DNA from: Micromonospora narathiwatensis
GTDB taxonomy: Bacteria > Actinomycetota > Actinomycetes > Mycobacteriales > Micromonosporaceae
Assembly (NCBI RefSeq): GCF_900089605.1
Contig: NZ_LT594324.1
Location: 3,100,001 to 3,164,000, forward strand
Direction: 5' to 3'
DNA length: 64,000 nucleotides
Shown piece by piece: positions 1,164-55,581 of the stretch (positions are counted from its first letter, which is position 1; each line of letters opens with the position of its first letter). A model generated the notes under the pieces. That model was not told the origin of the DNA. It did no database searches and saw only the letters and a program-made list of their open reading frames with translations. The position numbers were made by a program, and so were the translations under genes.

Positions 1164-1766
1164 TCAGCCGTCGGTCAGGAACGCCAGGGTCACCGGCGGC
1201 AGCTCCGACCGCCGGCGCACGACGAGGGTGGCCACCCGCAGCGTCCCGGAGACGTACACCAACCAACCCGGCCGGCGCGGCGGAGCGATCACCAGCGGGA
1301 CGCTCGTCGGCAGCCGCAGCGCCCGCAGGCAGCGCAGCACGGCGTCGGTACGACAGGCGGCGGTGTCGTGACGCTCCCCGGCGAGGCCCATCGCCTCCCG
1401 GGCCAGCGCGGCGTGCTCGGCCAGCAAGCGCTCCCAGTCACCGAGGGGACGCGGGCGTACCGCGGCGACGTCGCACGCCAGCCGGCCCGCGCCCGTCACC
1501 TCCAGCGTCAGTCCGTCGCCCGTCGCCCGCGCGGTGCTCGCCCCGTCGGGCTGCCGGCGTCGGCCGGCGGAGGCGGCGGGCACGGCGGCGGCCGGCCAGT
1601 CCACCGGGACCAGGTCGCCGGTGGGCCGCACCGTGGCGGTGAGTTCGACACCGAGCAGGTCGTGCAGCGCCGCCGTGACCGCGGACGACACCGTGGACGG
1701 CCCCGGCGGCGCGGCCGGCCGCTCCGGGAACGGTCGCGGGGCCGGCGCGATCGACGGCGCGCTCAC
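1164..1766 (-). CDS. Stand-alone protein resembling the PksE C-terminal PPTase domain, catalytic residues lost
   Basis: 200 residues, GTG start overlapping the rmlA stop by 4 bases (GTGA). The C-terminal half aligns by eye with the last ~130 residues of PksE in this same window: both share a CDV motif, an acidic Trp-containing helix after it, a conserved PGW before a beta-strand pattern, and a similar final strand. In PksE the phosphopantetheinyl transferase signature is WVAMECLQKAG; here the equivalent stretch is DAVLRCLRALR, so the metal-binding Glu and the following Lys are missing. The CDV Asp is kept. The N-terminal ~60 residues are Pro/Ala rich. The sequence supports a diverged PPTase-fold protein, probably not a working transferase; a scaffold or carrier-protein-binding role is only a guess. 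Its co-transcription with rmlA places it in the cluster. Confidence 0.6.
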   Translation of the reverse strand: MSAPSIAPAPRPFPERPAAPPGPSTVSSAVTAALHDLLGVELTATVRPTGDLVPVDWPAAAVPAASAGRRRQPDGASTARATGDGLTLEVTGAGRLACDVAAVRPRPLGDWERLLAEHAALAREAMGLAGERHDTAACRTDAVLRCLRALRLPTSVPLVIAPPRRPGWLVYVSGTLRVATLVVRRRSELPPVTLAFLTDG

Positions 1767-2827
1767 CCGGGCACCTCGATGCGACTGTGGTCGCCGGAGA
1801 CGATGCGGTAGCCGGCCTGGCGGTCACCGCATCCGACCTCGGCGGCACGGCCGATGATCGAGTCGGTCAGCCGGATCACGCCCGAGATCCGCGCCCCGTC
1901 CATGACCACGGAACCGGACAGTTCGCTGCCCCGAATCACGCAGTCACGGCCGATCGCGGTGTAGGCCCCCACACGGCTGTCCTCGATCACCGAGCCGGCG
2001 CCGACGATCGCCGGCCCCGCAAGGTGACTGCGGACGACTCGCGCACCGGGCTCGATGTGCACCCGGGGGCCGACGACGCTGAACGGGTCGACGTCCCCGC
2101 CGCGTACCGCCTCGATCGTCGCCAGCAGACGTCGGTTGCCGGCCAGGACGTCCTCGCTGTCGGCGATGTCCCGCCAGTACCCGGCGTACTCGGTGGCCCG
2201 GACGATCACCCCCTGGTCGACGAGCCACTGGACCGCGTCGGTCAGTTCCAGCTCGCCTCGCGCGCTGGGCCGGATCGCGTCGACGGCGCTGTGGATCGCC
2301 GGGGTGAGGAAGCACGCTCCGATGAGGGCGAGGTCACTGCGCGGCCGGCGGGGCTTTTCCACCAGGCGGACGACCCGGCCGTCCCCGTCCAGCTCGACCA
2401 CGCCGTACGGGCGCGGGTCGGCGACCTTCTGGACGAGCAGGTGGGCGCCGCCTCCCCGGCGGCGGAACTCCGCGGCCCCGTCGCCGAGGCCGTCGGGCAG
2501 CAGGTTGTCGCCGAGGTGGAGCAGGAAGTCGTCGTCGCCGAGGTACGGCCGGGCGACCCGCACGGCGTGGGCGAGCCCGCGCGGGGCGTCCTGCGGCAGG
2601 TAGGTGATGGTGACGCCGTGCTCGGCGCCGTCCCCCAGCGCCTGCCGGATCTGTGTCGCGTGGTCGCCGACCACCATGCCCACCTCGGTGATGCCGAGAT
2701 CGCGGACACCGCGCAGGACGTGTGCGAGCAGTGGCCGGTTGGCCAGCGGAACCAGTTGTTTGGGCAGCGCGTGGCTGACCGGCCGCAGGCGGGTGCCTGA
2801 TCCTCCGGACAACACCAGGGCCTTCAT
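1763..2827 (-). CDS. rmlA: Glucose-1-phosphate thymidylyltransferase, long form
   Basis: 354 residues, the normal length of the long (StrD/RfbA-long) class. The N-terminus has the nucleotidyltransferase signature GGSGTRLRP; PKQLVPLANRP and the LHLGDN metal site follow. The last ~110 residues form left-handed beta-helix (hexapeptide) repeats. The enzyme makes dTDP-glucose from glucose-1-phosphate and dTTP and would be the first step of the NDP-sugar branch completed by the dehydrogenase (33671), decarboxylase (34999), C-methyltransferase (31851) and N-methyltransferase (41338). The ATG at 2827 has GGGAGAAG six bases upstream. It overlaps the next gene by 4 bases. A hairpin (2863-2889) separates it from the upstream oxidoreductase gene, so it may have its own promoter. 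Confidence 0.93.
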   Translation of the reverse strand: MKALVLSGGSGTRLRPVSHALPKQLVPLANRPLLAHVLRGVRDLGITEVGMVVGDHATQIRQALGDGAEHGVTITYLPQDAPRGLAHAVRVARPYLGDDDFLLHLGDNLLPDGLGDGAAEFRRRGGGAHLLVQKVADPRPYGVVELDGDGRVVRLVEKPRRPRSDLALIGACFLTPAIHSAVDAIRPSARGELELTDAVQWLVDQGVIVRATEYAGYWRDIADSEDVLAGNRRLLATIEAVRGGDVDPFSVVGPRVHIEPGARVVRSHLAGPAIVGAGSVIEDSRVGAYTAIGRDCVIRGSELSGSVVMDGARISGVIRLTDSIIGRAAEVGCGDRQAGYRIVSGDHSRIEVPG

Positions 2828-2896: not shown

Positions 2897-3898
2897 TCAA
2901 GGCACGAGCAGGATCTTGCCGAGCGTGCGGCGGGAAGCCAACTCCTCGTGGGCCGCCGCGGCGGCCGCGAGCGGGAAGACGGCGTGGACGCGGACCCGCA
3001 GTCGACCGGCCAGCACGTCGTCGAAGACGGCCGAGGCGCGCCGGCGCACACGCTCCGGGGTGCGGTCGTAGTGGCTCAGCGACGCCTTGGTCAGGAACAG
3101 GGACCCGTACGAGTTCAGCAACTGCGGGTCGACCGGGTCGACCGGCCCGCTGGCCTGGCCGTAGAGCACCATGGCGCCGCCCGGTCGCAGGCAGGTGAGC
3201 CCGTCGGCGAAGGTGTCCCGGCCGACCGCGTCGTACACCACGTCCGCGCCCCGGCCGCCGGTGAGTTCCCGTACCCGGCCGGGGAAGGACGTGGCGCGGT
3301 AGTTGACGACGTGGTGCGCGCCGGCGGCCAGCGCCGCCGGGATCTTGTCGTCCCGGGACACCGTGCCGATGACGGTCGCGCCGAGCCCGGCGGCCAGCTG
3401 GCAGAGCACTCCGCCGACGCCACCGGCGGCCGAGTGCACGAGGCAGACGGCACCGTCGGTGAGCGGATACACGTCCGTGGTGAGCAGGTGCGCGGTCATG
3501 CCGTGGATGAGGATCGCCGCCGCGTCCGTCAGGCTCATGCCGTCGGGCACCGGCACCAGTCGCGTCGCCGGCACCACGCAGTGCGTGGCGTACGCCCCGG
3601 GCTGTCCCATCCAGGCGACCCGGTCCCCGACGGCCACGCCGGCGACGTCGGCGCCGACCCGGAGCACCGTGCCGCTGCCCTCGATGCCGGGCGTGAAGGG
3701 CAGGGACACCGGGTAGACGCCGCTTCGCTGGTACAGGTCGACGACGTTGACGCCGGCAGCGGCGACGCGGACGAGGACCTCGCCGGCGGACACCTGCGGC
3801 AGGTCGGTGTCGCGCGGCGTCAGGACCTCGGGCGGCCCGTACGCGTCCAGGACCACCCGCCGCGCCCCGGCGGGCGACGGCGGATCCCCCGTCGCCAT
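2897..3898 (-). CDS. Zinc-free MDR family quinone oxidoreductase (QOR/crotonyl-CoA-reductase-like)
   Basis: 333 residues. Typical medium-chain dehydrogenase/reductase layout: an N-terminal GroES-like domain (PGIEGSG motif near residue 90) and a Rossmann domain with HSAAGGVGG. No structural or catalytic zinc ligands are visible, as in NADPH:quinone oxidoreductases. The ATG overlaps the stop of the sulfur-carrier gene by one base (TGATG), so the two are translationally coupled. A redox step on a quinone-like, enone-like or sulfur-bearing intermediate is plausible; the substrate cannot be read from sequence. It is the last gene of the SufS, FGE-like, carrier, QOR run. Confidence 0.85.
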   Translation of the reverse strand: MATGDPPSPAGARRVVLDAYGPPEVLTPRDTDLPQVSAGEVLVRVAAAGVNVVDLYQRSGVYPVSLPFTPGIEGSGTVLRVGADVAGVAVGDRVAWMGQPGAYATHCVVPATRLVPVPDGMSLTDAAAILIHGMTAHLLTTDVYPLTDGAVCLVHSAAGGVGGVLCQLAAGLGATVIGTVSRDDKIPAALAAGAHHVVNYRATSFPGRVRELTGGRGADVVYDAVGRDTFADGLTCLRPGGAMVLYGQASGPVDPVDPQLLNSYGSLFLTKASLSHYDRTPERVRRRASAVFDDVLAGRLRVRVHAVFPLAAAAAAHEELASRRTLGKILLVP

Positions 3899-4164
3899 CA
3901 GCCGCCCGCCATCGGGGAGATGATGGTGACGACGGTGTCGGGACCGACCGTGGCGCCGACGCGCTGGTGGCGGGGGATCATGTCGTCGTCGAGGCAGATG
4001 TTGAGGTAGCGCAACGGTGTGCCGTCCGCGTCGAGCAGCCGTCGGGCGAACTGCGGATGACACGCGGCGAAGTCGCGGATGACCTCGTCCAGCGGACCGG
4101 CTGTGCCCTCGAAGTCGGTCCGGCCCTGGGGGGTCCAGACGGCGGGCACCACGATTCTGACCAT
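3898..4164 (-). CDS. MoaD/ThiS-type ubiquitin-like sulfur carrier ending in Gly-Gly
   Basis: 88 residues, ATG with GAGGAGAG four bases upstream. The N-terminal VRIVVPAVW strand, the central helix, the LNICLDDD strand and the C-terminal ISPMAGG fit the beta-grasp MoaD/ThiS/CysO fold. In this family the terminal Gly is adenylated by an E1-like enzyme and converted to a thiocarboxylate that donates sulfur. No E1-like (MoeB/MoeZ/ThiF) gene is in the window; housekeeping MoeZ serves such carriers in other actinomycete clusters. Its neighbours are an FGE-like gene, a SufS-like cysteine desulfurase and a quinone oxidoreductase, all in one direction, which argues for dedicated sulfur insertion into a product rather than cofactor synthesis. 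Molybdopterin or thiamine service is the alternative, but no cofactor genes are near. Confidence 0.85.
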   Translation of the reverse strand: MVRIVVPAVWTPQGRTDFEGTAGPLDEVIRDFAACHPQFARRLLDADGTPLRYLNICLDDDMIPRHQRVGATVGPDTVVTIISPMAGG

Positions 4165-4178
4165 GTCTCTCCTCGGTG

Positions 4179-5045
4179 CTAGGCGTCGGCCGCGCAGCGG
4201 AATCCGTGGGCGAAGCTGGACCACCCCTGGGGATCGCCGTGCATCCGCTCGCTGCAACGGACCTGGTAACGGAAGTTCATCCACGAGCCGCCCCGGATGA
4301 CGCGGTAGCGACCCATCGCCATCCGTACGGTGGGGTCACATCGGACGGTGTCGTCGTAGAGGCGGGACACGGTGGCGGTCCACTCGTAGACGTTCCCGGC
4401 CATGTCGGCGCAGCCGAAGGGGCTGTCGCCCCGTTCGGAGAAGGAGCCGACCGGCGACGTCCGGGGCACCGGGCCGTGCCGTCCGCACTCGGCCCGCCAC
4501 CACTGCTGCCAGGCCGGCAGCGAGGTCAGCGGACCGGCGTGCAGCTCGGCGGTGTTGGCCGCCTCGACGTCCCACTCGTCGCCCCACGGCCAGACGCGGA
4601 AGTCGGGGCCGCGGGCGGCGAACTCCCACTCCGCCTCGGTGGGCAGCCGCCTGCCGCACCACGCGGCGAACTCGTTGGCGTCGTTCCAGGAGACGTGGAC
4701 GACGGGGTGGTCGTCGAAGTCACGGCTCTCGGTTCCCGGGCCGCCGGGCGCGCGCCAGGTGACGCCGGCGCGCTCCGCCCAGCCCTGTTCGGTGTAGACC
4801 AGACCGAAGCCGCGCCGCTCCGCGTCCGTGCGGTAGCCGGTGTCCCGTACGAACCGGGCGTACTCGCCGACGGTGACCGGGAACCGGTCGATCCGGAACG
4901 GCGCCACGACGGTGGTCACCTGAGGGGTCTCGTCGGCGAACCACAGGCGGGGCAGCGGCTGGTCGGCGGCATCGAGCCAGTCGAGCACCCACGGCGCGGT
5001 TCCCTGCCGGAACATTCCACCCGGTATCCGGCGCATCTCACCCAT
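4179..5045 (-). CDS. FGE/sulfatase-modifying-factor family protein with one canonical Cys missing
   Basis: 288 residues. The family is clear from the N-terminal RRIPGGMF, PVTVGEYARF, HPVVHVSWNDA, RLPTEAEWEFAARG, WPWGDEWD, the DMAGNVYEWT motif and the terminal RGGSWMN...HGFRCA block. True formylglycine-generating enzymes carry two copper-binding cysteines between RGGS and GFR. Here only the one in VRCSER is present; the position before it is occupied by SWMNFRYQ. So canonical formylglycine formation is doubtful, and no sulfatase lies nearby. Relatives of this fold (EgtB/OvoA) catalyse oxidative C-S bond formation, which suits the adjacent sulfur carrier and desulfurase, but the DinB-like domain of those enzymes is absent. 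Start at 5045 has only a weak Shine-Dalgarno. Confidence 0.85.
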   Translation of the reverse strand: MGEMRRIPGGMFRQGTAPWVLDWLDAADQPLPRLWFADETPQVTTVVAPFRIDRFPVTVGEYARFVRDTGYRTDAERRGFGLVYTEQGWAERAGVTWRAPGGPGTESRDFDDHPVVHVSWNDANEFAAWCGRRLPTEAEWEFAARGPDFRVWPWGDEWDVEAANTAELHAGPLTSLPAWQQWWRAECGRHGPVPRTSPVGSFSERGDSPFGCADMAGNVYEWTATVSRLYDDTVRCDPTVRMAMGRYRVIRGGSWMNFRYQVRCSERMHGDPQGWSSFAHGFRCAADA

Positions 5046-5161
5046 CGCATCCAGCCTTCTGCCGCCGGGCGCCGTGGCCCCGGTCCGCGTCCTGGATCAA
5101 TCCTTCTGTCGGCCCCTGGCCGGTGCACCTCTCGCTGTGCCCGGCAGGTTGGTGGCGGCCG

Positions 5162-6424
5162 TCAGCGCGTCCGCCGGCCCATGCTCCGCACGGCGCCGGC
5201 CAGCGCGTCGATGTCGTCGCGGTCGGTGTATAGGTGCAGGGACGCCCGGACGGTGCCGGGCACCCCGTACCGACGGCAGACGAGCGCGGCGCAGTGGCGG
5301 CCGACCCGTACCTGGACCCCGTGGGCGTCGAGATGCCGTCCCACCTCGTCGGGTTCGAAGCCGTCGAGCACGAAGGAGATGACCCCGCCGCGGTCGGCCG
5401 TACCGGTCGGTCCGAGGATCCGCACACCCGGTACGTCGCCGAGGACGTCCAGCGCGTAGCCGGTCAGCTCCGACTCGTGGCGTCGTACCTCGGCCATGCC
5501 GACGGCGCCGAGGTAGTCGACGGCCGCGCCGAGGCCCACCGCCTGCACGATCGGCGGCGTGCCGGCCTCGAACCGGGCCGGCGGTGGCCGGAAGGTCGCC
5601 TCCGTCAGCTCCACGGCCGCCACCATGCCGCCGCCGGCGAGCATGGGCGGCAGGGCGTCGAGGAGTTCCGCACGCCCCCACAGCGCCCCGATCCCCGTCG
5701 GTCCGCACATCTTGTGGCCGGTGAAGGCGAGGAAGTCCACGCCGAGCGCCCGTACGTCGACGGGCCGGTGCGGAACGGACTGGGAGCCGTCGAGCAGCGT
5801 CAACGCGCCCACCTCACGAGCCCGCGCGACGAGCACGTCGACCGGGTTGGCGGTGCCGAGGATGTTCGACACGTGCACCCAGGCGACCAGCCGCGTCCGC
5901 TCGTTGACGATGGTGTCGAGGTCGGTCAGGTCCAGCCGCCCGTCCGCGGTCAACGGGACCGACCGCAGCGTGGCCCCGGTACGCCGGCACAGCAACTGCC
6001 ATGGCACGAGGTTCGAATGGTGCTCCATCTCGGTGACGACGATCTCGTCCCCGGGGCCCAGCCGCAGCCGGGGATCCCCGACCTGGCGGGAGTCGCGCCC
6101 GACGAAGGCGTGCGCGACGAGGTTGACGGCCTCGGTGGCGTTCCCGGTGAAGACGATCTCCCCGGGGCGGGCGCCGACGAACGCGGCCACCGACGCCCGG
6201 GCGGCCTCGTAGGCGACGCCGGCCTCCACGGCGAGGGTGTGTGAGCCGCGCCCGACGTTGGCGTGGTGTTCACCGTGGTGGCGCCGCATCGCGTCGAGGA
6301 CCTGCTCGGGAACCTGGGAGCTGCTCGCCGAGTCGAGGTACGCGAGGCGGCGTCCGGCGAGCCGGCGGCGCAGCATGGGAAAGTCCGCCCGTACGCGTTC
6401 GATTTCGTACCGCCGCCCGGTCAC
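5162..6424 (-). CDS. SufS-type class V aminotransferase, cysteine desulfurase-like
   Basis: 420 residues, GTG start with a GGGAGG Shine-Dalgarno seven bases upstream. SufS landmarks are in order: YLDSASSS, HHANVGRG, NATEAVN, EMEHHSNLVPW, the LLDGSQS aspartate, FTGHKMCGPTGIG with the PLP lysine, and near the end VGRHCAALVC followed by GTVRASL. The Cys in HCA sits where the persulfide Cys of SufS lies, so desulfuration of cysteine to feed the sulfur carrier at 3898 is likely. No other suf/isc genes are near, so this is not the housekeeping Fe-S operon. A PLP aminotransferase role on a sugar is unlikely, since sugar aminotransferases belong to the DegT/AspAT families. Confidence 0.88.
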   Translation of the reverse strand: MTGRRYEIERVRADFPMLRRRLAGRRLAYLDSASSSQVPEQVLDAMRRHHGEHHANVGRGSHTLAVEAGVAYEAARASVAAFVGARPGEIVFTGNATEAVNLVAHAFVGRDSRQVGDPRLRLGPGDEIVVTEMEHHSNLVPWQLLCRRTGATLRSVPLTADGRLDLTDLDTIVNERTRLVAWVHVSNILGTANPVDVLVARAREVGALTLLDGSQSVPHRPVDVRALGVDFLAFTGHKMCGPTGIGALWGRAELLDALPPMLAGGGMVAAVELTEATFRPPPARFEAGTPPIVQAVGLGAAVDYLGAVGMAEVRRHESELTGYALDVLGDVPGVRILGPTGTADRGGVISFVLDGFEPDEVGRHLDAHGVQVRVGRHCAALVCRRYGVPGTVRASLHLYTDRDDIDALAGAVRSMGRRTR

Positions 6425-10368: not shown

Positions 10369-11382
10369 TCATGCCCTTGCCGGATCGGTCGCCGGCACCG
10401 GGCCGGCGAGCCGGCCACCCGTCCGCGCGGGTCGGCGGAGCCAGATGAACCACCACATGAGACCACGGGCGAGACACACGATGGTGACCGCGAAGAAGGT
10501 CGTGTAGACGACGTTGAGCGCGAGCAGGACGCCGTAGACCGCGGCGACACCGGAACCGAAGGCGAACTGGTTCCAACCCTTGGTCGGCGTGGTACCCGGA
10601 TCGGTGATCATGTAGTTGGTGAACAGGACGAAGGCCACCCCGGTCATCGGCACCAGGGCGCCCCACAGCGCCACGTCGAGCGTCCAGTGCCGGACCAACG
10701 CCTGGATCACGAAACCGCCGACCCAGCCGAGGATGAGCGGCACCTTCTTGGTGAGCATCGCGTTGAGGACGGTCCCGGAGGTGATGATGACCAGCGGAAT
10801 GACGATGCTGATCGCCTCCGGGACGTGCTCCGTGAAGTGATACGGCGGCGCGACGTTCACCCACGGGAACAGCAGCAGGGCTGCCGAGATGCCCAGGTTG
10901 GACGGGTTCATGAAGTGCCGCATCCGCCCGTTGATGGGTGCCCGGAGGATGGCCTTCTGGCCGATGGCGACCAGGACCGCGAACGCGATCGGCCAGAACC
11001 GGTCATTGGCGTAGAGCAACATGTTCGCCGCGAGGGCGGTGATGTGCGTCGGTAGCAGGAACTCGTACATTCCCCGCCATCCGCGGCCGGAGAACTCCGG
11101 CGGGCGCCGGTACGCGGCGGCGGTGATCACCTCGATCAGGATCTCCGCCGCGTAGCCGATCAGCAGCGCGAGGATGGGCCAGGCCCACGGCTGCTCGAAT
11201 CCGAGCACGGTGTAGCCGAGGATGTTGAAGATCGTCATCGACAACGCGAAGTTTCGCAGCGCGATGTAGCGCGGGTCCTTCGGCGCCGCGGGCGCCACCG
11301 GCTTCCGTACGGGCGGGTCCCCGCCGGCCCGCTCGGGACCCGCCCTGTGGACCGACCTGTCGATGGACTGCGTGCTGCTCAT
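10369..11382 (-). CDS. unbU: Enediyne core protein UnbU, polytopic membrane protein
   Basis: 337 residues. After a soluble charged ~45-residue N-terminus come about eight to nine membrane helices, as in the NQR2/RnfD-like family to which enediyne UnbU proteins belong; features include PKDPRYIALRNFALS and LTHITALAAN-like short loops. UnbU is one of the proteins that always accompany PksE in enediyne loci. Its biochemical role is unknown; the kinship with redox-pump subunits suggests membrane electron transfer or transport. The ATG overlaps the unbV stop by 4 bases (ATGA), so the pair is translationally coupled, and a strong hairpin follows the stop. Confidence 0.9.
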   Translation of the reverse strand: MSSTQSIDRSVHRAGPERAGGDPPVRKPVAPAAPKDPRYIALRNFALSMTIFNILGYTVLGFEQPWAWPILALLIGYAAEILIEVITAAAYRRPPEFSGRGWRGMYEFLLPTHITALAANMLLYANDRFWPIAFAVLVAIGQKAILRAPINGRMRHFMNPSNLGISAALLLFPWVNVAPPYHFTEHVPEAISIVIPLVIITSGTVLNAMLTKKVPLILGWVGGFVIQALVRHWTLDVALWGALVPMTGVAFVLFTNYMITDPGTTPTKGWNQFAFGSGVAAVYGVLLALNVVYTTFFAVTIVCLARGLMWWFIWLRRPARTGGRLAGPVPATDPARA

Positions 11383-13379
11383 CGCACCCTCACCTCCCGT
11401 GCCTGATCGGTGAGCATCAGGCTGTGCCAGCCGCGGGTCATCTCCCGGGTCTCGGTGTGGACCACGCCGTCGAGGTCACGCCAGGTCACCTCGACGGAGA
11501 CCGGCTGGTCGCCGATCTCACCGAGGCCGAAGAACACGTCGAAGCTGCGCTTGCCGGAGTGGCCGCCGCCGCCGTCGAGCTGGGCCAGCCGGGTACGACC
11601 GTCCGGGGTCCGGACGCGGACCTGGGCTCCGTAGGCCGGCGTCCCGATCGCCTCCGGCGACGCGGCCGGCCGGTAGAGGCGCAGACCGACGAAGTCACCC
11701 GGGTGGGCGATGGTGTTGCGGTAGAAGCTGGGTTGACCCCACTGCCGTGCGACGGCGAAGTCCTGGGTGCCGTTGCCGTCGACGTCCGCGATCGCGACGC
11801 CCCGGCTCGGCGTGTCATCGCCCATGCCCAGCTCCGTGGCGAGGTTGACGTAGCGACCGTTGCCCTCCGGCGTCCAGAACGAGATCGGTTGGGATCCGGC
11901 GATGTCGTCACCCGGCTTCGCGTTCGGCCACATGCCGGGGTTGCGCAGCATGAGGTCGTTGGCCATCGCCAGTTCCTGAAGCCAGGCCCACCTGTTGAGG
12001 CTGCCCTTGATGAAGCCGTTGGCCTGGATCACCTCGACTTCGCCGTTGTTGTCGAAGTCCGCCATCTTCGCGTCCCAACCCCAGCCCGACCAGGCGAGGT
12101 TGCGTTCGGCGGCCTCGTTCTCGTACGGCGCCCGGCCGTCGCGCAGCATCTGCCCCGCCGCCTGTGGGCTCGACGCGGTGTTGCGCCAGACGAACGTGCT
12201 CTCCTCAAGCCCCCACGAGGTGGTGATGTTGCTGACGAACGCGTCGAAGCGTCCGCTGCCGTGCAGGTCACCGAATTCGACGGACATGCCCTTGAACGAG
12301 TCGTGGCCCAGGACCAGCGACTTCGGCGTGAACGCGTCGCGCTTGCCCTCGACCAGCTCGAAGCGGATCTGGCCGGGCACGGACCGGTTGTGGAAGAAAC
12401 GGTCGTTGCCGAAGTCGTTGGCGAGGTACAGCTCCGGCAGCAGGTCGCCGTCGAGGTCGGCCGACGCCGCGCCCAGGGTCCAGCCGGTCGCCACGGCCGG
12501 GTCCAGCGCCTTCTGCTCGGTGTAGGTGACCGACGGTTGCTTGCCGCTCTGGGCGGCGGTCCAGCGCAGGATGTGCGCCCCGCCGGCGTTGCGGGCGTGC
12601 GACATCGAATGGTTCATCTGCACCCCGGCCAGCCCGTCCGGGTCCAGCACGGCCGAGTCGGGGAAGTAGTTGAAGACACCGATGTCCACGTGCCCGTCGC
12701 CGTCGAAGTCCGCCACCGCGACGGCGTTGGTGTTCCACAGCGGCCCGTGATAAACGCCGTCGCCGCCGTTGAGGTTCGGGACGAGCTCGGTCGGCCGGAA
12801 ACTCTCCGGGCTCAGGGGCGCGCCCGTGCCCCGGTTCATGAACAGCACCGGCGTACGGCCCCAGTAGTAGACGAGCAGGTCCATCCAGCCGTCTTCGTTG
12901 AAGTCGCCGGGGACGCACCCCATCGGGGCCATCGCCCCGTGCACCGGCAGCGGCGCCGGTTCGAGGACGAACGGCTGGTACACGTTTCCGCTGCCCGGCG
13001 CCGGCGTGACGATCACACTGTCGCTGCGCGTGTCGACCAGACAGATGTCGTTGGCGACACCGCTGGCGTCGAGGTCGTTGACGGCGATCGCCGCGCCGAC
13101 GGAGGACACCCAGGAGCGGATGTGGTCGTACTCGGGGTTGACCGTGCGGACGGTGCGCTGGGGCAGGCCCGGCGGCAGGACGATCGGCAGCTCCGTGAAC
13201 GAGAACTGAGCGGCCAGTCTGGATCGGTCGGTCGGGGACGCTGACGGCAGCCGTGCGAGCAGATAGGTGGAAGCCAATAGGATGGCTACCACGAGCATGG
13301 GTATCAGGCGGCGTAGAATGCCGACCGGTTGCGAGGCCAACGGCTCCCCCTCGGAATCGGCAGCGCCCTCGCGCTGCAC
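11379..13379 (-). CDS. unbV: Enediyne core protein UnbV, membrane-anchored FG-GAP/ASPIC-UnbV protein
   Basis: 666 residues. A signal-anchor helix (LIPMLVVAILLASTYLLA) near residue 35 exports the bulk of the protein. It is followed by FG-GAP/VCBS-like calcium-binding repeats with DFDGDGHVD, DLDGDLLPE, DNNGEVE and DVDGNGTQD motifs, predicting a beta-propeller. The C-terminal ~90 residues (RLAQLDGGGGHSGKRS, VFFGLGE) are the ASPIC/UnbV domain that names the family. It is part of the universal enediyne PKS cassette; function unknown. The GTG at 13379 has a poor Shine-Dalgarno. A TTG at 13340, preceded by GGGGGAG, would remove 13 residues and keep the anchor, and may be the true start. Confidence 0.9.
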   Translation of the reverse strand: MQREGAADSEGEPLASQPVGILRRLIPMLVVAILLASTYLLARLPSASPTDRSRLAAQFSFTELPIVLPPGLPQRTVRTVNPEYDHIRSWVSSVGAAIAVNDLDASGVANDICLVDTRSDSVIVTPAPGSGNVYQPFVLEPAPLPVHGAMAPMGCVPGDFNEDGWMDLLVYYWGRTPVLFMNRGTGAPLSPESFRPTELVPNLNGGDGVYHGPLWNTNAVAVADFDGDGHVDIGVFNYFPDSAVLDPDGLAGVQMNHSMSHARNAGGAHILRWTAAQSGKQPSVTYTEQKALDPAVATGWTLGAASADLDGDLLPELYLANDFGNDRFFHNRSVPGQIRFELVEGKRDAFTPKSLVLGHDSFKGMSVEFGDLHGSGRFDAFVSNITTSWGLEESTFVWRNTASSPQAAGQMLRDGRAPYENEAAERNLAWSGWGWDAKMADFDNNGEVEVIQANGFIKGSLNRWAWLQELAMANDLMLRNPGMWPNAKPGDDIAGSQPISFWTPEGNGRYVNLATELGMGDDTPSRGVAIADVDGNGTQDFAVARQWGQPSFYRNTIAHPGDFVGLRLYRPAASPEAIGTPAYGAQVRVRTPDGRTRLAQLDGGGGHSGKRSFDVFFGLGEIGDQPVSVEVTWRDLDGVVHTETREMTRGWHSLMLTDQAREVRVR

Positions 13380-17000: not shown

Positions 17001-17548
17001 GTCGGCACCTCCCGGTCGGGGCCGGTCGTGCCCAGCCGTCCGTTGTGGAACAGCAGGGCCTGATCCGTGGCAGGCTGCGTGTAGGAGAGCAGCCGGCCGA
17101 CGACGATCGTGTGGTCGCCGCCGTCGTACCGCCGCCACAGCTCGCACTCGAACCACGCGAGCGCGTCCGCGATCATCGGCGCGCCGGTACGCTCCCCGGG
17201 CACCGCGGCGATGCCCGTGAACTCTCCGGGGCCCACCGGCCGGCGGGAGTCGGCGAAGTACCGGGCCACCTCGGCGTGGCCGGCGGCGAGCACCGAGATG
17301 CCGAAGACCGGGGCGGCGTCGAGGCAGGTGTGCATGACGGTGCTCTTGTCGACGCAGACGAGCACGAGCGGCGGATCGAGCGAGACGGAGGTGAACGAGT
17401 TCGCCGTCATCCCGTGCGGCTGCTCGCCGCCGACGGTCACCACCGTCACGCCCGTGGCGAAGGTGCCGAACGCCCGCCGCAGCACACGACGTTCGGCCGG
17501 ATGCCGGCCCGTCGGCGAATCGGGCCGACCACCGTGCGCCGCGGTCAT
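16997..17548 (-). CDS. NAD(P)H:flavin reductase (SgcE6-like)
   Basis: 183 residues, HpaC/SgcE6 family: RRAFGTFATGVTVVTV at the N-terminus, MTANSFTSVSLDPPLVLVCV and FGISVLA in the middle, and an HTIVVGRLL strand near the end. SgcE6 from the C-1027 pathway supplies reduced flavin to the two-component hydroxylase SgcC. This one could serve the HpaB-type hydroxylase at 35991 and the FMN oxygenase at 7422. It sits between the TE and P450 genes with 4-base overlaps on both sides, so it is made together with PksE. Confidence 0.92.
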   Translation of the reverse strand: MTAAHGGRPDSPTGRHPAERRVLRRAFGTFATGVTVVTVGGEQPHGMTANSFTSVSLDPPLVLVCVDKSTVMHTCLDAAPVFGISVLAAGHAEVARYFADSRRPVGPGEFTGIAAVPGERTGAPMIADALAWFECELWRRYDGGDHTIVVGRLLSYTQPATDQALLFHNGRLGTTGPDREVPT

Positions 17549-17985
17549 GACCCGTCCGTTCGCGCGAACGGCGCCAACGCCTGGGCCAGCGCGTCCGGTA
17601 CCCGGGTGGGCGCGGTCCGGGTGTTCGGCCCCCGCATGCAGGCCACCCGCTGCCTGCCCCGGGCGACGAGCGTCTCGGCGCCCGGCCCGTCGAGGCGCAC
17701 GTAGTCGAAGCCGAACTCCACCTGGGTCTGCGCCAGGTCGACGAGCCGCATCCGCACGGACAACTCGTCGAAGGCGGTCAACTCGGCGAAGAACTCACAG
17801 TCGACCCGGAGCGTGAACAGTTTGAGATCCGCGCGCAGCTCGTCGAGCACCCGCGGCGCCCGCTCCTTCAGGAACAGCTCGCGGCACCGGCCCTGCCAGC
17901 GCAGATAGTTGACGTAGTAGACGTTCCCGACAAGGTTGGTCTCCTCGAACCCGACCACGTGCCGGTACTCGAAATACCGGGACAT
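17545..17985 (-). CDS. Enediyne hot-dog thioesterase (TEBC/E10/CalE7 type)
   Basis: 146 residues, single 4HBT hot-dog domain. The opening RHVVGFEETNLVGNVYYVNYLRWQGRCRE is spread over the first strand and helix, and the FLKERAP segment is typical of enediyne thioesterases. These release the polyene from the PksE acyl carrier domain; they lack the usual acidic catalytic residue of other hot-dog enzymes and work through an Arg/Asn/Tyr set. The ATG overlaps the pksE stop by one base (TGATG), with GGAGG seven bases upstream. PksE and TE must be made in step, which this arrangement ensures. Confidence 0.95.
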   Translation of the reverse strand: MSRYFEYRHVVGFEETNLVGNVYYVNYLRWQGRCRELFLKERAPRVLDELRADLKLFTLRVDCEFFAELTAFDELSVRMRLVDLAQTQVEFGFDYVRLDGPGAETLVARGRQRVACMRGPNTRTAPTRVPDALAQALAPFARTDGS

Positions 17986-20900
17986 CACCGGTCCTCCCTG
18001 ATCAGCAGGCCGAACACCACCGGCTCCGGGTGGTCGCGCAGCGCCGTGACGAAGGTCGCGACGGTGTTCGGCCCGGCGGTGAGGAGCACCCAGCCGGGGC
18101 GCTCGACCGGTCGTACGGTGAGGCCCCCGGCGGCCAGCGGCTCCCCCGCCTTCTGCAGGCACTCCATGGCCACCCAGACGCGGGTGCCCGCCGTGTCGCG
18201 GTCCTCGCCCCCGTCCCCGCCGGCGAGCACGGGCAGCAACTCCGCGTACGCGCCGAGCAGACCGCGCCACTCGGCCGGTGACCGGGGCACGACCGTCTCG
18301 ACGTCGCAGGCGGTCGCCGCCGACGCGACGGCGCACACCGTCACCCCGGCCCCGTGGGCGAACGACACCTCCTGGCCGCCGTCGATCTCCGGCCGGCCGT
18401 CCGCCCGGTAGCGCACCGGCCGCGTCCGGCCGGTGGCGCGCGCCAGCGCCCGGGCCGACCGGGACCGGCGTACCGCCCGGACGTCGCCGTCGGCGTCGTC
18501 GGCGCCGTCCGGCTCGACCCCGACCGCGATCTCGGCCCCGGTCAACTCCTCGACGGAGCGTTGCAGGAACGGCCCCAGCAGCGGCGCGACCCACGGTCCC
18601 CGCCCGTCGTTGCGGCGCACGGCCCGCAGGTTCAGCCCCTCCCAGCGCTCGACCACGTCCCCGTCGCCGGAGCGCAGCACCACGTCGTAGACGTAGCTGT
18701 CACCGTCCCGCGACCGCTCTACGGCGCAGTACCGGAACCGTCCCGGCCGGACCGGGCCACCCGACGTGCGGATCCGCTCGACGCTCACCGGCAGCAGGGT
18801 CGCGTTCGGGACGCAGACCTGGTTGCCGTGCATGAGCGCGTCCCGGATCCCCGGGTCGCCGAGCACCAGCGTGCCCGGGTGGAAGGGCGCGAACCAGTCG
18901 TGCTCCTCCAGCACCAGGTCGGCGTCGACCTCGCGGGCCGCGGCGTGGTGGTAGCGCAGCAGGCGCTGGAACCGCCGGCCCTGGAACAGCAGATCGCCGT
19001 AGAGGTCCGCCGCCGGCCGCAGCGGCACGTCCGGCAGGTCCGCCGGCACCGGCAGCGGCGGACCGTCGGGTACGGGCTGCCCGTCGTAACGCAGCCGGGC
19101 GCGGAAGTGCTCGGCGGCGAACCGGGTCTCGCTGCTGTGGATGGCCACCCGCACCGTGTGGGTGTCCGTGGCCACCGCGGCGATCCGGATGCGGGTCGTG
19201 CCGTCGGGCGGTACGACGATCGGCCGCAGGAACCGCGCCTCCTCGATGGCCGGGGCGGACGATCGGCCGGTGAGCGCCGACGCCACCTGGGCCATCGCCT
19301 CCATCCCGAGCACGGCGGGGAAGAGCAGGTTGCCGTCGAGATGGTGGTCGGGGAGATAGTGGTCGGCACCCGCGCTCAGGTCGACCTCCGTCACCAGCTC
19401 GACCCGGGGGTAGTGCACGAGCGGCCGTTCCAGGAACCGCAGGAGCGGCAGCTCCACCGGCTCGTAGCGCACCGTGTCGATGCCGGAGGTGCGTCCGCTG
19501 ATCACGACCACGGGTGGCACGGCCGGATCCCCGAGCAGTCGCCTGAGCAGTTCCACCCCCTGGGCGGGGGTGATCGGCGTGACGCCCTCCCGGGCCAGGC
19601 TCTCCACGACGGACAGCCGTTCGCCCATGCCCACGCCGGACCACACCGACCACTCGAGGCAGACCGCGCGGCAGCCCGGGTGCTCGTCGCCGACCGCCCG
19701 GGTCAGGTCGGCCAGCCATTCGTTGGCGGTCGCGTAGTGCGCCTCGCCCCGGAGCCCGGCACGGCCGATGATGCTGCCGAGCGTGACCAGCAGCTTCAGG
19801 CCGCCCGGCCCGACCGCGTCCAGCACGGCCCGCAGGCCGCCGACCTTGCTGGCGAAGGCACGCCGCACCGCCTCGACGTCGAGGTTGCCCAGGGCGGCCG
19901 GCTCGTTGGTGCCCGCCCCGTGCAGGACGGCGGTCACCGGGCCGAGCACCCGGGCGACCTCCTCAACGGCCGTACGGACCCGTGCCGGGTCGGTGACGTC
20001 GGCGCGGACGTAGTGCGCCACGACACCGTGGTGCGCCATCCGTTCCAGGTTCGCCGCCAGCTCGGCGTCCGTCGCCGGGTCGGACCGGCCGAGGAGGGCG
20101 AGCCGGGCGCCGGTGTCCACGGCCACGGTGAACGCGCACTCCGCCGTGATTCCCTTGCCGCCGCCGGTGACCAGCAGCACGTCCGATCCGTCCAGGGGTT
20201 GCCGGGAGTGTTCGGGGCGCGCGGGCATGGCCCGCAGCGTGGGCAGCCGCCGCACGCCGTCGCCGTCGTAGTGCGCCTCGACGTAGTGGCCGGTGCCGCG
20301 TACCTCCCCGACGACCTGCTCGATCGCGTCGGCTGTCGACGCGACGTGGACGATCGTGACGCGCAGGCGCGGCGCCTCCAGCCGTAGCGTCTTCGCCAGG
20401 CCGGCGGCTCCACGATCGTGCTGCACGAGCACGAACCGGTCGACCGGGTCACCGGCAGCCAGCGCCGCCTGGGCGCCGTGCAGCGCGAGTTCCAGGTCGG
20501 ACTCCGCGCAGCCGGGCGGCAGGCAGACCAGCACCCCGGACCCGACGTCGGCGTCCGCCAGCCGGCGGGCCAGGGTCGCCGCGAACGGATGGTCCGCCGG
20601 GGCGTACAGCCGCCAGCCGCCCGGACCGAGCGGCTCGACCGGGGCCGGTGGCGGGGCCGGGTCGAGGTCGACCGTCCAGGCGCGGGCCCAGGTCTCCGCG
20701 CCGACGACGGGCGGGTCCGACTCCGGGGCGTCCGCCGCGCCGGTGGCCCGCAGTTCCTCCAGCGTGCCGGCGAGTTCCCGGACCGAGGCGGTCGCGAAGT
20801 TCATCGGCGTACGCACCGCCGACACGCCCAGTCGCTCGGCCGCCTCGTTGACGATCTGTCCGACGGTGATGGAGCTCAGGTGCAGCTCGTCCAGGAGGCG

Positions 20901-23795
20901 GCTGTCCGGGCGTACCATCTCCAGCGGCAGCTCCGCGCGGCTGGCGGCCATGCGTCGCAGCAGGTCGACGGCCTCCTCCCCGGGTTCGCCGCCGGTGTCC
21001 GCCGGTGCCGGGTCCGCCGGCCAGGCCGGGCCGTCCGCCACGGCGACGGCGGCGCCCTGCCCGCCGGCGACGTCGGCGACGGGTGCGGCCTCGCAGGGGT
21101 TGGCCAGCACCGCCGGCGGCGCGGCGAGGTCGATCGGCCGGGCCAGGCGGTCCTCGAACAACGCCTCGGGGATCTCGGCGGCCCCTCGGGTGTACGCCAT
21201 CGCGACCACGCGCAGCAGGCTCGCGATCGACTCGTCGTCGGTGTCGAGCGAGACGGCCGGTACGTCGGTCGCGTCGGCGGCGAGACGGGACAGCACCCGG
21301 CCGGGGCCGACCTCCACGAACAGGTCGACCTCCTCGGCCGCGACGGCGGCGGCCTGGGTGAACAGCACCGGTGCGGTGATCTGCCGGTGCAGCAGCGAGA
21401 GCACGTCGGTCTCGTCCGGCAGCGGTTCGCCGGTCACCGTGGAGACGACGCGGCGGCCGACGGCGGCGAGGTCGACGCCCACCAACGTGGCGGCGAACGC
21501 GTCGGCGGCCGGCGCCACCAGCGGTGAGTGGAACGCGTGCGAGACGGCCAGCGGGACGGCGGTGACACCGTCGGCGGCGGCTCGCCGGCACACCTCGTGC
21601 ACCGCGGCGACCTCGCCGGAGACCACCGTCTGTCCGGGACCGTTGTATCCGCTGACGACGACCGGGAGCCCGTCGACGTACCGACCGACGGTCGACGGCG
21701 GGGCGCCGATTCCCGCCATGGTTCCCGAGGCGCTGTGCTGTGCCATGGCCTCGCCCCGCGACGTGGCCAGCCGCAGCAGGGTCGCCTCGTCCATCACGCC
21801 GGCCCAGTGCAGGGCGGTCAGCTCGCCGAGGCTGTGCCCGACGGCAACGGTGGCGTCGACGCCGAGCAGCGCCAGCGCGGACAGGCCGGCGGCGGACCCG
21901 GCGACGATCCGGGGCTGCGCGACCTCGGTGGCGACCGCGTCGCCGGCGGCCGGCAGCGCCGCGAGCCGGTACACGGAGTCCACGACCGGGAACCTGCGTC
22001 GCAGCGCCCCACCGCCGACGCCGCGGCCGGATCCCTGCCCCGGGAAGAGGTAGCCGATGCGGCCCCGGCCGGCGACCCGGCCCAGGAACACCTGGTCCTC
22101 GCCCGAGGCCAGGGTCTCCTGGCCCGCGTCGATGGCGTCGACGATCCGGCGGAGCTGGCGTTCGGCGTCCTCCGGGTTCAGCACCACGGCGGCGGCCCGG
22201 TACGGCAGGTCGCGCAGCTCGCCGCGCAGTGCCACGGCGAGGTCGGTGAGCTGGGCGTACGAGGCGGCGCCGGCGAAGGCGGCGAGCTGTTCCGCCCGCT
22301 CCCGCAGCGCCGTCCAGGACATGCCGTCCAGCACGAGCAGTTCGGCGTCCTGCATCCCGGCGGCCAGCGTCGCGGTCCGCGCGTCGAGCCGGCGCGGACG
22401 TCGGCTCCGCTGGTTCTCCACCACGACGTGGGTGTTGATCCCACCGAAGCCCATGGCGGTGACCCCGGCCCGCAGCGCGGCGTCGGCCGGCCACGGTTCG
22501 GCGCCGGAGAGCACCCGCAGGGTACGGTCGGCGCCGGTGAGCAGCTCGTGCGGCTCGGGGCAGCCGAGCGCCGGGGGCAGCACCTCGTGGTGCACCGCCA
22601 TGACCGCCTTGATCAGTCCGGCGATCCCCGCCGCCGCCTTGGTGTGCCCGATCATGGCCTTGATCGAACTGATCACGGCCGGTGCCGCGGCGGCGTCGGC
22701 CGTCCGCCGGGCCTGGGACAACGCCGACAGCTCCGTGGTGTCGCCCACCTTCGTCCCGGTGCCGTGCCCCTCGAACAGCGCGACCGTCTCCAGCCCGAAC
22801 CCGGCCCGCGCGTACGCCCGCTGCAACGCCAGCCGGTAGCCGCCGACCTCCGGCCGGGTGATGCCGCCCCGACCGTCCGAGGAGACGCCCCAACCGGCCA
22901 CGGTGGCGTAGATCCGGTGTCCGGCCCGCCGCGCGTCCGGCTCGCGCATCAGCACGACCATGCCGCAGCCCTCGCCCGGCCAGAACCCGTTCGAACCGCG
23001 GTCGTACACCCGCATCTCGCCGGTGGCCAGCGCCCCCGTCTTCGCGAAGCCGATGATCTCGAAGGGGTCGATCGAGAGGTCGACCCCGCCGGCGACGACC
23101 ACGTCGACGTCGCCGTCGACGAGTGACCGGCAGGCGGTGGTCACGGACAGCAGCGACGACGAGCAGGCGCCGTCGACGGTGTATCCGCCGCCCTTGAGGT
23201 CGAAGTGGTTGCAGATGCGGCCGGCGATGGTGTTCGACAGGGCTCCGGCGAGGGTGTCCTCGTCGATCGGCGGGAAGGGCCGCTTGTAGTCGGCCTCCAC
23301 GCGGTCGAGGAGTTCCCGCACCCGCCGCTCGTCCCAGTCCAGGTCGGACAGGGCGGACGCGAGCACGCGACGGACGTACGGCCAGCGCAGCCGGAGCTGG
23401 TTGGCGCGGGAGAACTCGCCGGTGAGGCTGTTGCCGACGATCACGCCGGTCCGCTCGGCCGGCAGGCCCGCGCCCATCGGGAACCCGGCGTCGGCCAGGG
23501 CCGCGGCGGCGACGTCCAGGGCCAGCCAGTGCGTCAGGTCGGTGGAGCGGTACGTGCTGCCGGCCACCCTGAAGGCGAGCCGGTCGAACTCCCAGTCCTG
23601 CAACACGGCGGCGTTGCGGGCGTAGAAGCGGTCCGGCGCGGCGGGGTCGGCCGACCAGTAGTCGGCGAGCCGCATCCGGGCGTCTGGCAGCCGGCGGAAG
23701 GCACGTCGGCCGGCGACGGCGTTCTCCCACAGTTCCCTGGGCGACGCCGCGTCCGGATATCTGCATGCCATGCCGACGATGGCGATCCTCGTCAT
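17985..23795 (-). CDS. pksE: Enediyne iterative type I polyketide synthase (KS-AT-ACP-KR-DH-PPTase)
   Basis: 1,936 residues, the normal PksE size and domain order. KS: Cys211 in DGACSSS, His344 in EGHGTG, His384 in GHTKAA. AT: Ser655 in GHSLGE with HAFHS, predicting malonyl-CoA. ACP: around residue 973 in DELHLSSI, with the Ppant serine in the HLSS unique to this family. KR: TGGGKG near 1240. DH: HHLDGNLLFP near 1500. The final ~190 residues are a built-in phosphopantetheinyl transferase (CDVE, WVAMECLQK). The enzyme builds the linear C15-type polyene that is the enediyne precursor. The ATG at 23795 has a weak GGAG; the next gene (TE) overlaps by one base. All catalytic residues I can locate are intact, so the enzyme should be active. 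Confidence 0.97.
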   Translation of the reverse strand: MTRIAIVGMACRYPDAASPRELWENAVAGRRAFRRLPDARMRLADYWSADPAAPDRFYARNAAVLQDWEFDRLAFRVAGSTYRSTDLTHWLALDVAAAALADAGFPMGAGLPAERTGVIVGNSLTGEFSRANQLRLRWPYVRRVLASALSDLDWDERRVRELLDRVEADYKRPFPPIDEDTLAGALSNTIAGRICNHFDLKGGGYTVDGACSSSLLSVTTACRSLVDGDVDVVVAGGVDLSIDPFEIIGFAKTGALATGEMRVYDRGSNGFWPGEGCGMVVLMREPDARRAGHRIYATVAGWGVSSDGRGGITRPEVGGYRLALQRAYARAGFGLETVALFEGHGTGTKVGDTTELSALSQARRTADAAAAPAVISSIKAMIGHTKAAAGIAGLIKAVMAVHHEVLPPALGCPEPHELLTGADRTLRVLSGAEPWPADAALRAGVTAMGFGGINTHVVVENQRSRRPRRLDARTATLAAGMQDAELLVLDGMSWTALRERAEQLAAFAGAASYAQLTDLAVALRGELRDLPYRAAAVVLNPEDAERQLRRIVDAIDAGQETLASGEDQVFLGRVAGRGRIGYLFPGQGSGRGVGGGALRRRFPVVDSVYRLAALPAAGDAVATEVAQPRIVAGSAAGLSALALLGVDATVAVGHSLGELTALHWAGVMDEATLLRLATSRGEAMAQHSASGTMAGIGAPPSTVGRYVDGLPVVVSGYNGPGQTVVSGEVAAVHEVCRRAAADGVTAVPLAVSHAFHSPLVAPAADAFAATLVGVDLAAVGRRVVSTVTGEPLPDETDVLSLLHRQITAPVLFTQAAAVAAEEVDLFVEVGPGRVLSRLAADATDVPAVSLDTDDESIASLLRVVAMAYTRGAAEIPEALFEDRLARPIDLAAPPAVLANPCEAAPVADVAGGQGAAVAVADGPAWPADPAPADTGGEPGEEAVDLLRRMAASRAELPLEMVRPDSRLLDELHLSSITVGQIVNEAAERLGVSAVRTPMNFATASVRELAGTLEELRATGAADAPESDPPVVGAETWARAWTVDLDPAPPPAPVEPLGPGGWRLYAPADHPFAATLARRLADADVGSGVLVCLPPGCAESDLELALHGAQAALAAGDPVDRFVLVQHDRGAAGLAKTLRLEAPRLRVTIVHVASTADAIEQVVGEVRGTGHYVEAHYDGDGVRRLPTLRAMPARPEHSRQPLDGSDVLLVTGGGKGITAECAFTVAVDTGARLALLGRSDPATDAELAANLERMAHHGVVAHYVRADVTDPARVRTAVEEVARVLGPVTAVLHGAGTNEPAALGNLDVEAVRRAFASKVGGLRAVLDAVGPGGLKLLVTLGSIIGRAGLRGEAHYATANEWLADLTRAVGDEHPGCRAVCLEWSVWSGVGMGERLSVVESLAREGVTPITPAQGVELLRRLLGDPAVPPVVVISGRTSGIDTVRYEPVELPLLRFLERPLVHYPRVELVTEVDLSAGADHYLPDHHLDGNLLFPAVLGMEAMAQVASALTGRSSAPAIEEARFLRPIVVPPDGTTRIRIAAVATDTHTVRVAIHSSETRFAAEHFRARLRYDGQPVPDGPPLPVPADLPDVPLRPAADLYGDLLFQGRRFQRLLRYHHAAAREVDADLVLEEHDWFAPFHPGTLVLGDPGIRDALMHGNQVCVPNATLLPVSVERIRTSGGPVRPGRFRYCAVERSRDGDSYVYDVVLRSGDGDVVERWEGLNLRAVRRNDGRGPWVAPLLGPFLQRSVEELTGAEIAVGVEPDGADDADGDVRAVRRSRSARALARATGRTRPVRYRADGRPEIDGGQEVSFAHGAGVTVCAVASAATACDVETVVPRSPAEWRGLLGAYAELLPVLAGGDGGEDRDTAGTRVWVAMECLQKAGEPLAAGGLTVRPVERPGWVLLTAGPNTVATFVTALRDHPEPVVFGLLIREDR

Positions 23796-24824: not shown

Positions 24825-24925
24825 AGTTACCCCTCAGGTGGTCAGCGTCGACCGGACGGACCGGGTCCGACCGGTCCGCCTGCGGCGACGTGGGTGGCGG
24901 CGGGGCGGTCGCCCGCCGGGGATGC

Positions 24926-25927: not shown

Positions 25928-26235
25928 CGCTCCCGCTCTCCTACCGAGGTCGACCGGTCACCGTCAGCTATCGACGGCCGTTCCATCGTCGGTCAACCGG
26001 GAGGGGGAGTCTTCTTCCGCTGTGCCCAGTCACCGGGACCGAGCAGGCGACGGCCGCTCGACCGCCGGCCCTGGCGCGGCGGGTACGCCGGTCAGGACCG
26101 CACAGCGGGAGAGGACGACGTCGAGCCTCGTCGGCAGGCTGAATTCGCGACCTCCCCCGCGCGTGCCCGTCCTGCTGCGCCGTCCTCACGGCGCGACGGC
26201 CGAATTGGGGGCCACGCCAAGCCGTAAGGACAATG
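25928..26235. promoter_or_regulatory. Divergent control region between the core operon and the GMC-oxidoreductase operon
   Basis: 308 bases with no gene seen. It must drive both the minus-strand pksE operon and the plus-strand operon starting at 26236, so it is the most important control region of the locus. I see no clear consensus boxes. Confidence 0.5.
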
Positions 26236-33095: not shown

Positions 33096-33576
33096 GTCGT
33101 CAGGCTCCTTCGTGGTGTCGCACCCCTCGGCCCGCCCGCGTCGTCGCCGTACCCGGGAACGGTCGGCCGGGGCGACGGCGCCGGTCGGTGCGGGCCCGCC
33201 GCGCCGGAGGTCGTCGGCGGCCGGCCCGCCGGTGCCGATGGTGCTGGAGGCGGCCCTTCCGCCAACGGCCATCGTCGCGACCGGCGCGGGGCCGGGGCAC
33301 ATCTCAGCGTGCTCGACCGCGCGGGCCGGGACGCGGGCCCACCTCGACGCCGTCGGGCCAGCCGGTGGCCGGACGGGTGGGCACGGAGAGAGATGCCGGT
33401 GCAGGTGATCAGCGACAGGATCGGTGGCATCGGGCGGGACGCAGCGCATCCCAGATCACCGACCCACAGGCTGAGGCCGATGGCTGTCGATCCCGCCGCG
33501 TTCCCTCCCGGTCCGGCGTTGCGGCAACAGCGCCGGACCGGGAGTTGATCTTTGTAGCGAGGGTGAGGAGACGAGC
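33096..33576. promoter_or_regulatory. Divergent control region with leader hairpin, C-methyltransferase / sugar-dehydrogenase operon
   Basis: 481 bases without a supportable long gene. The right part holds a 14-bp hairpin (33505-33544) followed by an AT-richer stretch and the small frame at 33577. Promoters for both directions must lie here. Confidence 0.5.
33505..33544 (+). promoter_or_regulatory. 14-bp leader hairpin ahead of the sugar-dehydrogenase operon
   Basis: Arms 33505-33518 and 33531-33544 pair perfectly around a 12-nt loop that can itself fold. It stands 33 bases ahead of a 33-codon frame and 127 ahead of the dehydrogenase start, with TTGATCTTTG after it. It could be an attenuator or an upstream terminator. 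Confidence 0.45.
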
Positions 33577-55512: not shown

Positions 55513-55581
55513 GGCGCCGCCCCGGCCGCGCACCGGCCACCGCGTCCGGTGCGCTCGCGACGCGTCAAGGAGAGAGCCCTC

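Follow-up and report, generated by a model that had tools for sequence, protein, structure and literature searches.

The window analysed here is a 64,000-nucleotide stretch of the Micromonospora narathiwatensis genome, which is a single contig of 6.61 Mb. Its subject is a run of genes in which a protein with the fold of formylglycine-generating enzyme (FGE) adjoins a small MoaD/ThiS-like sulfur carrier. We found that these two genes form a conserved pair linked to enediyne genes. The predicted gene functions suggest that the pair likely delivers sulfur, with a thiosugar as our best guess for the product. The run comprises the following genes.

5162 to 6424, minus strand: SufS-type cysteine desulfurase (TIGR01979, 504.7 bits, cut-off 475.1; catalytic Lys238 and Cys378)
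4179 to 5045, minus strand: CalU17-subfamily protein with the FGE fold, lacking the two Cys of the FGE copper site (PF03781, E 2.8e-62)
3898 to 4164, minus strand: CysO-like MoaD/ThiS sulfur carrier of 88 residues, C-terminus SPMAGG (PF02597, family profile)
2897 to 3898, minus strand: MDR-family zinc-binding (quinone reductase-like) oxidoreductase (PF00107/PF08240)
1763 to 2827, minus strand: rmlA-type glucose-1-phosphate thymidylyltransferase, MdpA1-like (TIGR01208, 347.1 bits, cut-off 320.25)

The sequence-only reading had presented the first four genes as a block on one strand with coupled starts. Their positions and common strand were reproduced. Coupling holds for part of the block, where the carrier stop and the MDR start share one base (TGATG) and 14 bases separate the FGE gene from the carrier gene, but not between SufS and FGE, which lie 116 bases apart. 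The rmlA-type gene, 69 bases downstream of the MDR gene and in the same direction, extends the run. As a unit the four-gene block did not hold up: because SufS is missing from two close relatives (G198 and G220), the conserved unit is the FGE-carrier pair. The two genes are adjacent in 22/22 loci (the window, locus L003 of A. harenae and 20 fetched loci), and the MDR gene adjoins the carrier in 10 of them.

Taken alone, the window carrier scores 19.7 bits against PF02597 (ThiS), for which the gathering cut-off is 22.5. It is not a chance open reading frame, since a profile built from 17 such carriers matches CysO (3dwg, 3.1e-11) and 4n6e_B (4.9e-10); entry 4n6e is CysO together with the 2-thiosugar enzyme BexX. 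Two FGE-fused carrier relatives score above the PF02597 cut-off. The Gly-Gly terminus is found in 65/65 aligned carriers (that of the window and 64 chosen from 120 listed relatives), and the Gly-Gly carrier described earlier, ending MAGG, appears by family profile to be of the CysO kind. The desulfurase assignment was likewise upheld: the score lies above the SufS cut-off, and the pyridoxal phosphate (PLP) Lys and the persulfide Cys are kept in 7/7 cassette SufS proteins aligned. A housekeeping E1 enzyme that could be borrowed had also been suggested, and the single ThiF match above cut-off in the genome is a MoeZ-like ThiF-rhodanese protein at 4739945, 1.6 Mb away. With a CysO-like carrier ending in Gly-Gly, a SufS retaining Lys and Cys, and a MoeZ-type E1, the genes predicted to make a carrier thiocarboxylate are all present, the E1 being borrowed.

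In the FGE-fold protein, the FGE-sulfatase domain spans residues 3-285 of 288, and there is no further Pfam domain. Its best solved relative is CalU17 (2.4e-114), a protein of the calicheamicin cluster (PDB 6vqp, 7ml6, 7msy). A true formylglycine-generating enzyme was ruled out: the residues that we take to form the active-site Cys pair of the FGE copper site are missing in 24/24 aligned proteins (the window protein and 23 chosen from 120 listed relatives), and the block reads RGGSWMNFRYQVRC. A sulfoxide synthase of the EgtB/OvoA/SenA type was also ruled out. Those enzymes have an N-terminal iron-binding DinB domain, and no such domain is present here, where the FGE domain fills the 288 residues. 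Structural neighbours of the protein include PvdO and ToxD. Its AlphaFold model is middling (mean predicted local distance difference test score 67), and we draw no conclusion about an active site from this model. Natural fusions of FGE and ThiS occur twice among the 120 FGE relatives listed.

Searches of 354 genomes of the family, at a threshold (E 1e-85) that reaches only relatives of more than about 50% identity, found the FGE in 18 genomes. DUF1702, a marker of enediyne clusters, occurs in 146 of the 354, including all 18 with the FGE, and 0/208 genomes without the marker carry the FGE (Fisher 6.2e-8, kinship uncorrected). A profile search of genome contigs with the FGE alignment returned mostly generic FGEs, with close relatives at 2/80 loci. 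The enediyne polyketide synthase gene (pksE) is present in 20/20 FGE-bearing genomes tested. In 16 of these it lies on the same contig, at most about 40 kb from the pair. Of the other four, G149 has the pair unlinked to its matching pksE, and in G075, G053 and G626 the two are on different contigs, so that linkage is not demonstrated. Across 20 pairs taken from 19 genomes, distances among FGE and among pksE sequences agree closely (Mantel r 0.92, 0/5000 permutations); the two FGE copies of G149 were matched to its two pksE genes by type, and unlinked pairs are included. The same cassette gene order is seen in genomes belonging to two genera (g1, g4).

These results bear out the proposed link to an enediyne locus, but the set is not peculiar to this one: the pair occurs in 12 nine-membered-type genomes of the 354 and in calicheamicin-type clusters. 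The carrier and its CalU17-type partner are a real module, confined to genomes with enediyne genes among those searched. The number of DUF1702 copies and the gene content served to assign ring size, and the iterative polyketide synthase (PKS) and gene order to assign the calicheamicin-type label. On this basis, six loci with the pair are of the calicheamicin type (G162, G169, G224, G235, G239 and the second copy of G149), and two more are of the ten-membered type (G324, G742). All six have an NDP-hexose (NDP, nucleoside diphosphate) 2,3-dehydratase gene after the carrier. The FGE of G169, the only one of the six compared with CalU17, matches it with 602 bits, and an 88-residue carrier ending LAGG adjoins it.

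It could be argued that the cassette merely travels with the cluster, or that it is a sulfur operon of housekeeping function lying there by chance. The four genomes lacking demonstrated linkage to pksE fit such a view. In G149, 3.9 Mb separate the first FGE copy from the nine-type pksE, and about 230 kb separate the second copy from the ten-type pksE. The first G149 copy thus comes near to the stand-alone block, far from enediyne genes, that had been named as evidence against a role in the cluster; however, this SufS-FGE-carrier block sits with halogenase, C-methyltransferase, NDP-glucose dehydrogenase (UGDH), NDP-glucuronate decarboxylase-type epimerase (UXS), HpaB, non-ribosomal peptide synthetase (NRPS) and aminomutase genes, which belong to the same peripheral pathways as in the window. 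The 0/208 count, the shared gene order in two genera and the Mantel correlation all stand against a chance neighbour, which we regard as highly improbable, and an ordinary housekeeping sulfur operon was rejected on the first of these figures.

Two further features of G149 were observed. Its nine-membered cluster seems split, with core and peripheral genes (C1:777831 and C1:4648470) 3.9 Mb apart. It also carries a third, lone carrier ending LAGG (L157 2781-3047; C1:4601680-4601946), without an FGE, which directly precedes a match to the NDP-hexose 2,3-dehydratase (78%) near a ten-membered-type pksE.

The main other genes of the window are listed here.

17985 to 23795, minus strand: enediyne polyketide synthase pksE (KS-AT-KR-DH domains)
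17545 to 17988: E10, neighbour of pksE
11379 to 13379: E5/UnbV, neighbour of pksE
23838 to 25927, minus strand: two DUF1702 proteins of the E2/E3 type (PF08012, 444.8 and 438.6 bits)
62641 to 63111, plus strand: neocarzinostatin-family apoprotein (PF00960, 8.3e-27)
31851 to 33302, minus strand: sugar C-methyltransferase, MdpA4-like (PF08484)
33671 to 35002, plus strand: UGDH, MdpA2-like (PF03721)
34999 to 35994, plus strand: UXS, MdpA3-like (PF01370/PF16363)
39853 to 41271, minus strand: glycosyltransferase, EryCIII-like (PF06722, PF21036)
55549 to 60771: iterative PKS for an aromatic acid (KS-AT-DH-KR-ACP), with a coenzyme A (CoA) ligase at 60768 directly after it

The cluster core also holds a flavin reductase and a P450, and genes for a tyrosine-derived acid are present (tyrosine 2,3-aminomutase, TIGR03832 above cut-off; halogenase; HpaB-type hydroxylase; NRPS; condensation proteins). 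The nine-membered set is represented by the two DUF1702 proteins, UnbV, the gene at 10369-11382, pksE and E10. We take both E2 and E3 to be DUF1702 proteins, which agrees with the copy numbers observed, and position guided their separation as well as the naming of the gene at 10369 as E4. In PMC5181780, the E3/E4/E5/E/E10 set plus E2 defines nine-membered clusters, with E2 as the nine-membered marker. On gene content the locus is classed as a nine-membered, maduropeptin-like enediyne cluster with an apoprotein, the ring size because of its two DUF1702 proteins. The likeness to the maduropeptin (mdp) cluster, whose pathway is described in PMC10951976, covers rmlA, UGDH, UXS, C-methyltransferase, glycosyltransferase, iterative PKS, CoA ligase, aminomutase, halogenase and apoprotein. 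The window cluster differs from it in lacking a DegT aminotransferase; its SufS, FGE, carrier and MDR genes are a putative further difference.

The sequence-only reading had left two acceptors in view, the ligase at 60768 or a sugar. The ligase is not favoured because it adjoins the aromatic iterative PKS and fits as an ordinary activating ligase for it. For the sugar, gene neighbourhood and co-occurrence give circumstantial support. The rmlA gene follows the MDR gene in 7/22 loci, A. harenae has the run UGDH-UXS-FGE-carrier-MDR, and in G341 a desulfurase-like gene (35% identical to the window SufS, Lys and Cys kept) directly precedes rmlA-UGDH-UXS in one direction. UGDH and UXS occur together in 17/21 FGE-positive loci, G626 (20 kb) being left out, against 0/11 enediyne clusters without the FGE, of which seven are nine-type and four are ten-type (Fisher 1.1e-5, kinship uncorrected). 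The controls in this comparison are few and the spans unequal, each control being covered by 40-120 kb and each FGE-positive genome by 20 to 320 kb. None of the seven nine-type controls (G056, G286, G271, G156, G334, G335, G282) carries the two genes. It should be noted that for the second copy of G149, UGDH and UXS lie with the ten-type pksE, away from the FGE; if this copy is counted by the FGE's own stretch only, the figure becomes 16/21 (Fisher 3.4e-5).

A DegT aminotransferase is present in 8/8 ten-membered-type loci and in 1/12 of the nine-membered type (G053), a count that omits A. harenae (20 kb, no DegT there). No PF01041 (DegT) match was found in the window; the nearest, at 3091378 in the left flank, is a class I/II gene with 23 bits. 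We assume that MdpA5 belongs to the DegT family. MdpA5 aminates the maduropeptin sugar (PMC10951976). The amination step of a maduropeptin-type sugar, judged from these genes, seems to be missing here. SufS, the sole class-V PLP gene among the scanned window genes, might then itself aminate the sugar in place of MdpA5, with carrier and FGE unrelated to it. However, SufS scores above its family cut-off and keeps the catalytic Cys, and its loss in G198 and G220, where the sugar genes remain, fits a replaceable desulfurase better; we consider an aminotransferase role very unlikely.

A rather unlikely alternative, in our view, is that the pair delivers sulfur not to a sugar but to the enediyne core or its trigger, which in ten-membered enediynes is an allylic trisulfide. 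This would fit the presence of the pair with both nine- and ten-membered types and its tracking of pksE, and PMC4851618 states that the enzymes installing the trisulfide were unknown. However, the pair-free ten-type clusters of G177 and G268, which lack FGE, carrier, UGDH and UXS, keep genes 64% (SufS-like) and 68-69% (class-V PLP, CalS4-like) identical to those of G235. Because these two clusters keep such genes without the pair, the FGE-carrier pair separates from the other candidate sulfur genes in ten-type clusters. It goes with UGDH and UXS rather than with the SufS-like and CalS4-like genes, and in G149 and A. harenae it sits among sugar genes.

The CalS4-like protein (a label given here; CalS4 itself was not the comparison sequence) was rejected as a sulfur marker, as it occurs in 23/354 genomes, among them the pair-free ten-membered G177, G268, G057 and G152. 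The one copy aligned (G235, L138 12019-13329) keeps the Lys of class-V PLP proteins and lacks the desulfurase Cys. If it is CalS4, the name cysteine desulfurase for CalS4 is doubtful on these residues.

The combined reading, in which loading, transfer, acceptor and product are inferred from observed gene content, synteny, co-occurrence, conserved residues and natural FGE-carrier fusions, would run as follows. SufS, or a housekeeping desulfurase where SufS is missing, would supply persulfide sulfur, and the one MoeZ-type E1 that the genome encodes would adenylate the carrier and form a thiocarboxylate at its C-terminal glycine. Once loaded, the carrier would be bound by its dedicated partner, the CalU17-type protein, which would move the sulfur onto a biosynthetic intermediate. 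The likeliest acceptor would be an NDP-4-keto-pentose made by the rmlA, UGDH, UXS and C-methyltransferase products, so that a 4-thio sugar would replace the 4-amino sugar of maduropeptin, much as calicheamicin carries a 4-thiosugar; a reduction may come from the MDR oxidoreductase. That the carrier acts in sulfur transfer for the product is probable, and, given such a role, a sugar is somewhat favoured as the acceptor. The whole scheme, from loading by SufS and MoeZ to thiolation of an NDP-4-keto-sugar by the CalU17-type partner, falls slightly short of an even chance.

Several observations weigh against this scheme, besides the few and unequal controls and the four genomes without demonstrated linkage. 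UGDH and UXS were absent from the spans examined of the FGE-positive nine-type genomes G010, G018, G053 and G075. The absence of DegT is no proof of a thiol, as the sugar could stay a hydroxy-sugar. The FGE-fold protein lacks the Cys pair and shows no recognisable catalytic residue pattern. SufS is absent not only in G198 and G220; none was found beside the FGE in A. harenae, G053, G075 and G341. To our knowledge, sulfur occurs neither in maduropeptin nor in any other nine-membered enediyne that has been characterised.

The last two points, together with the neighbours PvdO and ToxD, which indicate that the FGE fold alone leaves the chemistry unfixed, also favour a pair whose product is free of sulfur. 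The pair would then serve a thio-cofactor, a ubiquitin-like protein tag, or an oxidation by the FGE fold with the carrier as regulator. Against this, 6/6 genomes with a CalS4-like protein of at least 90% identity (calicheamicin type) are FGE-positive, and calicheamicin bears both a thiosugar and a trisulfide (PMC4851618). The catalytic Cys conserved in 7/7 SufS proteins likewise argues for sulfur chemistry, and a role that leaves no sulfur in the product appears to us rather unlikely.

Known systems resemble the window cassette in part. CalU17 is of the same FGE-fold subfamily, and its near relative in G169, a calicheamicin-type locus, likewise has a carrier next to it. The window pair differs in setting: its cluster is of the nine-membered type with an apoprotein, and SufS and MDR genes lie alongside. 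Mycobacterium has a CysO-CysM-MoeZ pathway that makes cysteine, with a carrier of the same family, whereas the neighbour of the window carrier is an FGE-fold protein encoded among enediyne genes. The BE-7585A system (BexX, 2-thiosugar) shares a CysO-like carrier and a MoeZ-type E1 encoded elsewhere in the genome, and MoeZ is reportedly part of that system as well. According to PMC4784017, it borrows housekeeping carriers, and its acceptor enzyme is a thiazole-synthase homologue. In contrast, the window carrier is dedicated and its partner has the FGE fold; no ThiG/BexX-like gene turned up in the Pfam scan, which took in a subset of the window's open reading frames. Paulomycin (Pau30/Pau31, MoeZ-like protein and desulfurase) shares a desulfurase in the cluster of a glycosylated product (PMC4425429); it has its own E1 and no carrier of its own, the reverse of the window cluster.

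Passages of PMC4851618 described the route of sulfur into calicheamicin-type enediynes as unknown in 2016 and put forward calE4, calS4 and calE6 for it. The FGE-carrier pair, unnamed in those passages, adds two genes to these candidates. Among open-licence PMC papers, nothing was found on CalU17 or on an FGE-carrier pair in enediynes. The pair is kept with enediyne clusters of either ring size and is a testable candidate for sulfur addition; if it serves a thiosugar, one group of nine-membered enediynes would be expected to contain sulfur. We further speculate, as a generalisation that is doubtful at present, that CalU17-type FGE-fold proteins may form a new class of carrier-dependent thiolation enzymes, moving sulfur from a dedicated CysO-like thiocarboxylate to C4 of an NDP-4-keto sugar in both calicheamicin-type and nine-membered chromoprotein enediynes. 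If true, one module would account for the calicheamicin-type thiosugar, and undescribed nine-membered chromoprotein enediynes with a 4-thio-3-C-methyl-pentose replacing the maduropeptin amino sugar would be predicted.

Three other genes of the window deserve mention. The 337-residue protein at 10369-11382 (minus strand), E4 by position, has no Pfam or NCBIfam match and lies beside UnbV in most pksE loci examined. A protein of the mycothiol-maleylpyruvate-isomerase (MDMPI) type at 26233-27063 (plus strand) occurs in most nine-type clusters seen, including 6/7 FGE-negative ones. Finally, an NAD-dependent DNA ligase at 37605-39773 (minus strand) lies inside the cluster and is kept in G172, G250, G198 and G220 (84-95%); it possibly repairs self-inflicted DNA damage.

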